From Deltaproteobacteria bacterium (GTDB lineage: Bacteria; Myxococcota_A; UBA796; JAFGLY01): 54,729 nt of DNA. The DNA lies in contig JAFGLY010000013.1 in the NCBI GenBank assembly GCA_016927815.1, forward strand, positions 1-54,729. The letters run 5' to 3'. Numbering within the stretch: position 1 is the first letter of the stretch; each line of letters begins with the position of its first letter. Under the pieces are notes generated by a model, which was given only the letters and a program-made list of their open reading frames with translations, was not told the DNA's origin and did no database searches. The translations under genes and the position numbers were made by a program. Shown one piece after another: positions 38,734 through 42,410 of this stretch.

Positions 38734-40233
38734 ATGTCCGTGATCGGCAGAATCCGCAAGGGAACCGAGACCGGCACGGTCAAGGTGATCTTCTTCGTCG
38801 TGGTCGTGGTCTTCCTCTTCTGGGGCATCGGCCAGAGCAGCGGGCCGGAGTCCACCGTGGTGGCCGAGGTCAACGGCGAGCGCATCACCGACACTCGGTA
38901 CCACCAGGCCATGCGCAACACGCTCCACGGCCAGCGACGGGCCATGGACGAGGACGAGCAGGTCGCCCTGGCGCGCCAGGTCCTGTCCAACCTCATCCTC
39001 CAGGAGGTGCTCCTGCAGGAGGCCCACCGCCTGGGCGTCGAGGTCAGCAACGAGGAGCAGGCCGAGTACATCCTGAGCCACGAGGCCTTCCAGGACGAGT
39101 CCGGCCGGTTCAACGAGGAGCTCTACGAGCGCGCCCTGAAGCGCAGCGGATCCAACCGGTCCCAGTTCGAGCGGGACATCTACAACCAGATGGTCCTCGG
39201 CCGGCTCGAGGGCGTGGCCCTGTCGGCCATGGCCCTCAAGAAGGAGGATCTCCGCCGGGCCTGGCTCACGGCCGAGACGCGCCTGTCCTTGGAAGTGGTA
39301 CGCGTCCCCGCGCTCTTCTTCTACGACGATGTCCAGCCCACCGAGGTCGAGGTCGACACGTGGATCGCCGAGCACGGGGCCGACATCCACGCCCGATACC
39401 AGGAGGAGTACAACTCCAGGTACTTCCTCCCCATGCGTGCCACGGTCCGCGAGATCCTCCTCAAGACCGGCATCGGGGACGTCACGCTCGACGATCTCCG
39501 CATCCGGATGGCCTCGCTCCGCAAGGAGGCCGAGGCTGGCGCGGACTTCTCCGATCTGGCCCGGCGCTGGAGCGAGGCTCCGACGGCCGCCGACGGGGGA
39601 AGCCTGGGAGAGATCCGTGCGGACACCGCGGATCCGGACGTCGCGCGGGTCGTGTTCGGGGACGAGGGCGCCAACCCCGCGCCAGGCCTGAGGTCCGTGC
39701 TGGAGGCCAAAGAGGGCCTCGTGCTGCTCCAGGTGGACACCCTCCTCCCCGAGGACTCCATTCCGGAGGAGCAGGTGCGCAGCGAGATCGCCCTGCGCAT
39801 GCTCCGCGAGCTTAGGGCACCCGAGATGGCTGCTGCCTTTGCCGAGCAGGTCCGAACGGCATGGAAGGAGCAGGGCGTCGTGCCCTCCGATCTGCTGGCC
39901 GCCCAGAGTCTCGTGCTCGAGACCCCGGAGCCGGTCTCGCTGGCCCACGCGACGGTGCCCGGCCTGCCTCACCTCCCGGACCTCGCGGCCGCCCTGCCTC
40001 AGGCCCAGCCGGGTCAGGTGCTGGAGACCCCCTTCCGGGACGGCGACACCTGGTACGTGGTCCGTCTCGAAAACCGGATCGATCCGGATCCCGCTCGGTT
40101 CGAGGAGGTCCTGCCGCTCGTCCGCACTCGGCTCGAGATGGAGGCACGCGCCGCCTTCGTGAGGACCTGGGAGGACGACCTCGTCGCCCGCGCCAGCGTG
40201 AAGCAGTACTACAAGCCGAGGCCGGGCAGGTAG
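38734..40233 (+). CDS. ppiD: PpiD/SurA-like periplasmic folding factor
   Basis: The 499-residue protein has an uncleaved N-terminal anchor (about 16-34, VKVIFFVVVVVFLFWGIG), a SurA_N-like helical chaperone part (EVNGERITDTRYHQAMRN), a parvulin-type rotamase region (ADFSDLARRWSEAPTAADGGSLGEI) and a C-terminal helical part. PpiD helps outer-membrane and secreted proteins fold near the Sec exit. It is shorter than E. coli PpiD (623). GGGAG lies before the ATG. Confidence 0.88.
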   Translation: MSVIGRIRKGTETGTVKVIFFVVVVVFLFWGIGQSSGPESTVVAEVNGERITDTRYHQAMRNTLHGQRRAMDEDEQVALARQVLSNLILQEVLLQEAHRLGVEVSNEEQAEYILSHEAFQDESGRFNEELYERALKRSGSNRSQFERDIYNQMVLGRLEGVALSAMALKKEDLRRAWLTAETRLSLEVVRVPALFFYDDVQPTEVEVDTWIAEHGADIHARYQEEYNSRYFLPMRATVREILLKTGIGDVTLDDLRIRMASLRKEAEAGADFSDLARRWSEAPTAADGGSLGEIRADTADPDVARVVFGDEGANPAPGLRSVLEAKEGLVLLQVDTLLPEDSIPEEQVRSEIALRMLRELRAPEMAAAFAEQVRTAWKEQGVVPSDLLAAQSLVLETPEPVSLAHATVPGLPHLPDLAAALPQAQPGQVLETPFRDGDTWYVVRLENRIDPDPARFEEVLPLVRTRLEMEARAAFVRTWEDDLVARASVKQYYKPRPGR

Positions 40234-40370: not shown

Positions 40371-40403
40371 GAGGTATTGACTTGTCAACGCCTCGCCTAT
40401 CTA
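40370..40403 (+). promoter_or_regulatory. Dyad operator overlapping a promoter upstream of sppA
   Basis: A dyad spans 40370-40395: half-site CGAGGnnTTGAC mirrored as GTCAAnnCCTCG around a central TT, with 20 of 26 positions paired. TTGACT (40377-40382) inside it can act as a -35, with TATCTA (40398-40403) as -10 after a short 15-nt spacer. A repressor dimer bound to the dyad would cover the -35. The regulator is unknown. Confidence 0.6.
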
Positions 40404-40435
40404 CTACATGAGAGTCTGAACGCTCTCCTCGCATC

Positions 40436-40589
40436 ACGGAGGTCGGACAGTCCGGGTCGTCATGCCGCACCGGGAGCCGTAGCACCTGTCCTCAACCCGC
40501 CCCTGGACGCTCGTTCCCCGGTCCGCCTGGGCGAGCCGGATCGAGGGAAGGCTGACGCTGTCGCCCCCGACCCGGACTGTCCCCTCCGT
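40436..40589 (+). ncRNA. Structured intergenic element, candidate non-coding RNA or leader
   Basis: The element is closed by a 22-bp helix: ACGGAGG (40436-40442) pairs with CCTCCGT (40583-40589). After a 2-nt bulge, GGACAGTCCGGGTCG (40445-40459) pairs perfectly with the 15 nt at 40568-40582. The 108-nt interior contains a hairpin (GCTCG-TT-CCC with GGG-CGAGC, 40509-40536) and a supporting CCCT/AGGG pair (40501-40504 and 40544-40547). It begins about 27 nt after the start predicted from the upstream promoter and ends about 90 nt before sppA. A long irregular rod with a terminal hairpin is 6S-RNA-like in outline, but no conserved 6S, RNase P, tmRNA or SRP element was recognised. It could be a free RNA, an sppA leader or a small palindromic mobile repeat. 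The strand is inferred from the promoter. Confidence 0.5.
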
Positions 40590-40679
40590 CCTCCCACCGA
40601 GCCGAGCCACGCGACGATCGGCCCCTGGTCCCAGGCCGGGTCCGTGAATACCCCTTCCGCGCACCCGGTGGACGTCGCC

Positions 40680-42410
40680 ATGAGAAAGAGCACCCGCCTG
40701 CTGTTGTGGATCTCCGTCCTGGGGTTCGTCCTGTTCGCGGCGACCACCGCTGCGCTCGTCCTGGTCCTGTCCGGCGAACGGGTCCTGGGAGACCATGAGC
40801 CCCGCACCCTGGTGGTGGAACTGGGCCCGGCGCTGTGCGACGCACCGCGGGAAGGGACGTTCGTGATGGACCCGCAAAACCTCCCTCCCCTCCTCACGGA
40901 CGTCACCGCCGCCCTCCGGAAGGCTGCGGACGATCCGGAGGTCGCCGGTCTCCTGCTGGTGATCGAGCCCCTCGACATCGGGTTCGGCGGCGTCCAGGAA
41001 CTGGTCGCGGCCCTGGAGGCGTTCCGCGCGTCCGAGAAGCCGTGCGTCGCCCACGCCGACGAGTACGGCAACAAGGAGTACCTGCTGGCGGCGGCCTGCG
41101 GGCGGGTGGAGGTGTCGCCCGCGGGCATCGTGCTCGTGAACGGGCTGCACGTCACCGAGACCTACTACAAGGGCACGCTCGACCGAATCGGGGTGGACCC
41201 CGAGCTGGAGCACGTAGGCGATTTCAAGTCCGCGGTGGAGCCGTTCGAACGCACCGCGCCGTCCGAGGAGGCCCGCATGGCCACGGACGCCGTCCTGGAC
41301 TCGCTGTACGGGCAGTTCGTGGACGCGATCGCACGCGCTCGGGGCATGGAGCAGGACCGCGTCCGATCCCTGCTCGATCGCCCGCCGCTCTCCCCGAACC
41401 TGGCCCTGGAGGCCGGCATGGTGGACGCGGTCGCCTTCGAGAAGGAGGCCCGCGAGGCTGCCGGGGACGACGACGCCATCGATCTCTCCGACTACGTCCG
41501 GAAGGTCCGGCGGGCTCGCTCCAAGGGCGTCCGGATCGCGGTGGTCCACGCGGACGGGTCGATCGTCTCCGGAAAGAGCCGGATCGGGGTCCTCGGTGGA
41601 CGGTTCGTGGGAGACGAGGACACCGTCGAGCTCCTCGAAGACGTCCGAGACGACGACGACGTGGCGGCGGTGGTCCTGAGGGTGAATTCCCCCGGCGGGA
41701 GCGGGCTCGCGTCCGACAACATCTGGCGGGCGCTCCAGGAGGTCCGGGAGGAGAAGCCCGTCGTGGTGTCCATGTCGGACGTCGCCGCGAGCGGCGGGTA
41801 CTACATCGCCGCCGGCAGCGATCTCATCGTGGCCCAGCCTGCCACCTTGACGGGGTCCATCGGCGTGTTCGGCGGAAAGATGAACGTCGCGGGCCTCTAC
41901 GAGAAGATCGGCCTGACCCGTCATGTCTACAAGCGCGGCGAGATGGCGGACCTGTTCTCGAGCACCTCGGCCTTCTCGGAGGATGGCCGAGCTCGGTTCC
42001 GAGCCTACCTCGACGCGTTCTACGCGCTCTTCCTCGAGCGCGTCTCCGAGGGGCGGAACCTGGACGTGGCCCAGGTCCACGCCTCGGCACAGGGTCGCGT
42101 CTGGACCGGGGAGCAGGCCCTGGATCGGGGCCTGGTGGACGAACTCGGCGGCCTCGACGTGGCCATCCAGCGGGCCCGGGAGCTCGCGGGCGTCGAGGGG
42201 GAGACCGGGATCCTGCGCCTGCCCGCCGAGAAGACGATCGTGGAGCAGGTCTTGGAGGAGCTGACCCAGCCCGGCACCGGAGCGTCCCGCACCCTCGGGA
42301 CGGCGCTGCCGGAGGCGGGCGAAACCCTGGCGCTGGCCGAGACCCTGGCTCGGGTGCTGGAGGGCAGTGAGGTCGCGGCGATGCTTCCGGGCGTGATCGA
42401 ACTGTGGTGA
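40680..42410 (+). CDS. sppA: Signal peptide peptidase SppA, 67K type
   Basis: SppA is a membrane-bound serine protease that degrades cleaved signal peptides. The 576-residue double-domain protein has an N-terminal anchor (LLLWISVLGFVLFAATTAALVLVL), the first-half Lys183 in FKSAVEPF and the second-half Ser371 in VAASGGYYIA, the Lys/Ser dyad of the 67K type. Other family segments are VNSPGGSGLASDNIW and LTGSIGVFGGKMN. The start at 40680 gives the anchor directly; its ribosome-binding site is weak (GGTGG). The leader is long (about 270 nt) if transcribed from the dyad promoter. Confidence 0.92.
   Translation: MRKSTRLLLWISVLGFVLFAATTAALVLVLSGERVLGDHEPRTLVVELGPALCDAPREGTFVMDPQNLPPLLTDVTAALRKAADDPEVAGLLLVIEPLDIGFGGVQELVAALEAFRASEKPCVAHADEYGNKEYLLAAACGRVEVSPAGIVLVNGLHVTETYYKGTLDRIGVDPELEHVGDFKSAVEPFERTAPSEEARMATDAVLDSLYGQFVDAIARARGMEQDRVRSLLDRPPLSPNLALEAGMVDAVAFEKEAREAAGDDDAIDLSDYVRKVRRARSKGVRIAVVHADGSIVSGKSRIGVLGGRFVGDEDTVELLEDVRDDDDVAAVVLRVNSPGGSGLASDNIWRALQEVREEKPVVVSMSDVAASGGYYIAAGSDLIVAQPATLTGSIGVFGGKMNVAGLYEKIGLTRHVYKRGEMADLFSSTSAFSEDGRARFRAYLDAFYALFLERVSEGRNLDVAQVHASAQGRVWTGEQALDRGLVDELGGLDVAIQRARELAGVEGETGILRLPAEKTIVEQVLEELTQPGTGASRTLGTALPEAGETLALAETLARVLEGSEVAAMLPGVIELW

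Follow-up and report, generated by a model that had tools for sequence, protein, structure and literature searches.

A predicted pseudoknotted RNA family located 3' of ppiD in an order of uncultured Myxococcota and its probable role as a leader of a hydrolase-sppA unit

The window examined here is the whole 54,729-nucleotide stretch of DNA that was analysed. In it, a 446-bp gap separates a ppiD-like gene (38734-40233, + strand) from sppA (40680-42410, + strand). The ppiD-like product carries SurA_N and rotamase domains by Pfam and has homologs in 61 of the 63 genomes of the order, and sppA encodes a signal peptide peptidase (TIGR00705, Peptidase_S49). Within the gap we read a presumed promoter from the sequence (TTGACT and a weak -10 box, TCTACT, separated by 17 nt; 40377-40405, + strand, position inferred), and the presumed -35 box is overlapped by a dyad operator, the perfect palindrome TTGACTTGTCAA (40377-40388), which occurs three times in the genome compared with zero times for the reversed control. 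A small 5' hairpin predicted from sequence and fold, P0 (GAGAG/CTCTC; 40410-40427, + strand), lies near the presumed transcript start, and the element under study follows at 40436-40589. The initial annotation had placed this element directly downstream of a promoter with a dyad operator. The dyad is borne out by its counts, but the presumed promoter is only weakly σ70-like, and a consensus scan found none.

The element is closed by a helix, P1, in which the outer 5' strand ACGGAGG (40436-40442) pairs with CCTCCGT (40583-40589) and, after a bulged TC on the 5' side (40443-40444), the main 5' strand GGACAGTCCGGGTCG (40445-40459) pairs with 40568-40582, all on the + strand. All pairs of the initially described arms of 7 and 15 bp, with a 2-nt bulge and a 108-nt interior, were confirmed. 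The perfect 15-bp arm is the longest inverted repeat in the window at spacers of up to 200 nt, and it does exceed chance as had been claimed, with shuffled sequence yielding 0.1 such repeats per window, or about 0.001 for the ppiD-sppA gap. The interior is indeed able to form a hairpin, P2 (40514-40549, + strand), with 12 bp, one bulged A and a loop at 40526-40536; pair probabilities computed with ViennaRNA are 0.91 for P2 and 0.99 for P1. The fold energy of the single sequence is ordinary (z = −1.5), and the case for an RNA therefore rests on comparison among genomes rather than on energy.

A protein-coding origin of these sequences is not indicated, in agreement with the earlier reading. The reading frame of sppA stays open 5' of the gene as far as 40377, yet its third-position GC content there is only 0.69-0.75, compared with 0.91 in sppA, and among relatives the spacing between P1 and the start codon falls in all three reading frames, which argues against coding. 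We also considered an open frame that begins from ATGGCAAG in the g23 relatives and rejected it, as the frame of P1 varies among relatives with respect to both this open frame and the next gene.

The relatives compared are uncultured Deltaproteobacteria/Myxococcota, including UBA796, and all genomes are drafts assembled from metagenomes. A DNA search for the element in 57 relatives recovered nothing beyond the window, as the primary sequence changes too quickly for matches at the DNA level, and the regions 5' of sppA in relatives looked empty of the element. In many members of the order, however, the regions 3' of ppiD orthologs share the layout of the window, with inverted arms of 12-15 bp set 101-122 nt apart (for example GGAGGACGGGCAGG/CCTGCCCGTCCTCC). 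A covariance model built from ten sequences of family f2, with the window left out, matched the window at 40436-40592 (19 bits, E = 0.008 in 28 kb), matched genomes G001 and G020 at the corresponding place and added G017 and G054 as members. A broader model with nine seed sequences, which included the window and for which the E-values of the seeds are by construction, found one site in each of 19 of the 379 genomes scanned across the phylum, all of them within this order; in family f4 it gave matches in two genomes (E = 0.007 and 0.011). Altogether the family comprises 23 genomes of one order, in which the element is nearly always located just 3' of ppiD. Nineteen of these members were identified by covariance model, two f4 genomes by the weaker model match and two further f4 genomes (G033 and G023) by inspection only. 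Public copies are found in CANKOI010000042.1, CAMBIK010000128.1, CAITDR010000275.1, SXOM01000630.1 and CAMAWH010000011.1.

Candidate elements at the same place in six genomes of family f3 (G053, G022, G032, G013, G038 and G045) have unrelated stems and no model match, and are not counted as members. At this place the f3 loci (L085, L180, L186, L189, L185 and L198) contain other long inverted repeats of unrelated sequence, some of which enclose the start codon of the hydrolase gene, and these may be either diverged homologs or independent structures.

The helices are conserved among members by matched changes on both strands. P1 varies between 20 and 22 bp across the family (22 bp in the window), and a comparison of just the window with G001 already shows four P1 pairs changed on both sides, including the first pair of the outer arm. 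In an alignment of the family (A6), P1, P2 and a small helix together account for 35 pairs, of which 22 have changed on both sides; for P2 (helix 3 of the alignment) the figure is 10 of 11 pairs. The proportion of paired cells is 88.8% versus 72.5% after shuffling, and the covariation score is 0.435 versus 0.177 for shuffled (0/500) and at most 0.135 for slid controls, although the structure guided the alignment of A6 and so works in favour of its score. A structure-free MAFFT alignment (A3) also scored above its controls (0.235 versus 0.154, 0/500). These shuffled and slid nulls ignore phylogeny, and the f2 sequences are related to each other. The compensatory changes in relatives that the initial annotation had proposed to look for are thus strong for both P1 and P2. 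There are 25 G.U pairs against 11 A.C mismatches, a bias that points to the + strand.

A third helix links the P2 loop to the 3' side of the element. The loop sequence GGGCGA (40529-40534, + strand) is complementary to UCGCCC (40561-40566, + strand), which lies one nucleotide from P1 in the window and 0-4 nt from P1 in nearly all relatives, such that the two strands form a pseudoknot, P3. Among representatives of 11 lineages all 66 of 66 cells are paired, and permutation of partners matches this in 1e-5 of trials. One P3 position takes all four Watson-Crick types (GC, CG, UA and AU). The paired strands are GGGUGA/UCACCC in G001, GGAGCR/YGCUCC in most of g3, GGGACG/CGUCCC in G031 and GGAGUG/CACUCC in G040. 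P3 was spotted by reading the sequences and its register was set by hand, always adjoining P1. When sequences were shuffled individually the test was weak (p from 0.005 to 0.78 each, with the intended P3 missed in two sequences), so the support for P3 comes from covariation. The 3' strand of P3 is preceded by a conserved joining motif, GACGCUGU (40554-40561, + strand), which is present in the model consensus, the window and most relatives. From these sequence comparisons, the ppiD-sppA gap is predicted to encode a structured RNA that is kept by matched base changes across the order, and the existence of the RNA family is well supported.

In relatives the gene that follows the RNA is not sppA itself. 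Where measured (16 cases), the RNA ends 4-53 nt 5' of the start codon of an α/β-hydrolase gene (Pfam Abhydrolase_1), and in most relatives sppA is next after the hydrolase gene. In the window's genome (G000), which is 97% complete, the hydrolase is missing, with just a 30% paralog elsewhere, and the RNA precedes sppA, whose start codon lies about 90 nt (90-91) beyond P1. In G017, the RNA and the hydrolase are found together, away from both ppiD and sppA. In most members the RNA lies on the same strand as the following gene, between the presumed promoter and the start codon. In relatives of genus g3 (for example L078, L080 and L084) codons 3-4 of the hydrolase, GACGGA, repeat the core of the P1 5' strand, and the P1 3' strand could pair with the hydrolase coding start instead, a possible alternative fold observed in this genus only.

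The dyad also recurs beyond the window. The same or a near-copy dyad stands before the RNA or the hydrolase in many relatives, and one further site of TTGACTTGTCAA in the window's genome is 5' of a gene for a small HTH protein (G000:C215:19608-19856, locus L234; PF13518/PF13384). This protein has no NCBIfam name and is present in 52 of the 63 genomes of the order. A perfect TTGACNCGTCAA dyad lies 5' of the HTH gene in 22 of the 23 relatives examined (operators in L234-L263), and in several f3 genomes the HTH gene itself is close 3' of ppiD. The third TTGACNNGTCAA site in the window's genome is at a contig end (G000:C105:11683-11694, L201). The shared operator suggests that the small HTH protein probably represses the RNA-hydrolase-sppA unit as well as its own gene, in each case at the promoter. 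Neither the pseudoknot, nor the family, nor this probable regulator figured in the initial annotation.

We consider it fairly likely (with a probability of roughly 0.6) that the RNA serves the hydrolase-sppA unit as a pseudoknotted 5' leader acting in cis. A transcript would start from the promoter overlapped by the TTGACNNGTCAA operator, which is probably bound by the small autoregulated HTH protein, and its first ~180 nt would fold into P1 (22 bp here) around hairpin P2. The P2 loop would then pair with the 3' strand beside P1, such that P3 could stack on P1, and the folded domain would end a short distance 5' of the point at which translation of the first gene begins. From this arrangement we infer transcription and an action in cis, by which the leader would control ribosome access to, or the mRNA stability of, the hydrolase-sppA unit, possibly in response to a signal sensed by the fold. 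Of the three options raised initially (a new small RNA, a leader controlling SppA and a palindromic repeat), the leader fits best because in almost every relative the RNA is placed after the presumed promoter and ahead of the first gene of the unit, and because it has moved with the hydrolase in G017. The linkage in G017 pulls toward cis action on the hydrolase and that in G000 toward sppA, and a leader of the whole unit fits both. Some observations count against a leader: we found neither a terminator nor a hidden Shine-Dalgarno site nor any conserved alternative pairing, and P1, at 20-22 bp, is long for a switching helix. The leader reading is also weakened by the intact RNA in G000 despite the loss of the hydrolase, as a trans role would explain this too.

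The new small RNA of the initial annotation would be one that acts in trans, and this alternative is possible if on balance improbable. Such an RNA would have its own promoter, would be detached from the 5' end of the mRNA, for instance through RNase III cleavage of the ~20-bp P1, and would regulate other RNAs or bind a protein. A helix of ~20 bp is of the length of RNase III substrates, and P1 is both long and stable. The presumed regulated promoter, the retention of the element in the window's genome after hydrolase loss and conserved unpaired GCUGU-type motifs, to which a partner could bind, are all consistent with this possibility. Nevertheless, in the relatives examined the element is just 5' of the first gene of the hydrolase-sppA unit on the same strand and, where measured, 4-53 nt from its start codon, it was relocated together with the hydrolase in G017, and a terminator-like site was not found after the element in the window.

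A ligand-binding riboswitch, in which P1, P2 and P3 would make up the aptamer and the formation of P1 or P3 would set translation of the next gene, appears unlikely. The compact pseudoknot beside P1 and the position before a start codon do resemble translational riboswitches, and the GACGGA repeat at the g3 coding start offers an alternative partner for the P1 3' strand. This alternative pairing, however, is confined to g3 and was identified by eye. P1 is also very long, every member found in the scan of 379 genomes of the phylum belongs to a single order and the genes concerned suggest no ligand.

The outline of the element had also been described as 6S-like, a likeness that proved misleading. 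Of 4227 Rfam models compared with the window element, none matched at gathering level, with two chance-level matches at E up to 10, and the elements of relatives gave only chance-level matches to unrelated families; the initial impression that no known RNA signature is present thus holds. The sole gathering-level Rfam match in the window is a tRNA gene at 2081-2153 on the - strand. It is very improbable that the element is a 6S RNA or imitates an open promoter in the manner of 6S. Its long closing stem and large interior would suit such a role, and 18 of the 19 genomes with a match to the broader model have no full RF00013 match, but RF00013 does not match the element at E up to 10, nor does it match the elements of relatives, the pseudoknot closes what would be the bubble and G000 has a separate RF00013 match (C58:372-552, 41 bits, E = 1e-6) whose neighbouring genes are those found beside 6S elsewhere in the order. 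A full RF00013 match is present in many genomes of the order that lack the RNA, and the missing matches may reflect divergence of 6S in family f2 rather than its replacement. Finally, despite its perfect terminal inverted repeat, it is scarcely credible that the element is a palindromic repeat, a miniature transposon or a chance palindrome acting as DNA, given one copy per genome by both DNA search and model instead of the dispersed copies expected of a repeat, a position conserved in distant relatives, compensatory changes that include G.U pairs and no visible target-site duplication.

The comparison thus yields a pseudoknotted RNA family that Rfam lacks, with strong covariation, in uncultured Myxococcota known here from draft genomes alone, and ties this family to a specific operator and a candidate regulator. 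We found no earlier description of either the RNA or the operator in the open papers searched. A leader of this unit would also provide an entry to the control of envelope proteins, with the unit associating a chaperone-like PpiD, a hydrolase and a signal peptide peptidase. A bolder and rather doubtful extension is that the RNA represents a new sensor or regulatory class under the dedicated small HTH regulator, either as a ligand- or protein-sensing leader or as a trans RNA with a global role in lineages without a recognisable 6S. Single-sequence fold energy would have missed this RNA, and the reading of intergenic inverted repeats therefore has value.

Among known systems, 6S RNA (SsrS, RF00013) shares with the element a long closing helix, a large interior, a similar length and a single copy per genome, but the element differs in lacking any sequence or structure match, in its loop-to-3'-strand pseudoknot, in its position before a gene start and in occurring beside a separate 6S in the same genome. 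In twister and similar self-cleaving ribozymes, a terminal loop forms pairs next to the closing helix. The element shares this feature but has no Rfam ribozyme match at the thresholds used, a much larger interior and no recognised cleavage motif. Translational riboswitches and other pseudoknotted mRNA leaders are likewise structured 5' leaders with a pseudoknot by the closing helix and a start codon nearby, although P1 of the element is much longer, a conserved expression platform was not found and no Rfam model matches. Structured leader RNAs are a known kind, and the element is best classified as a new family among them.
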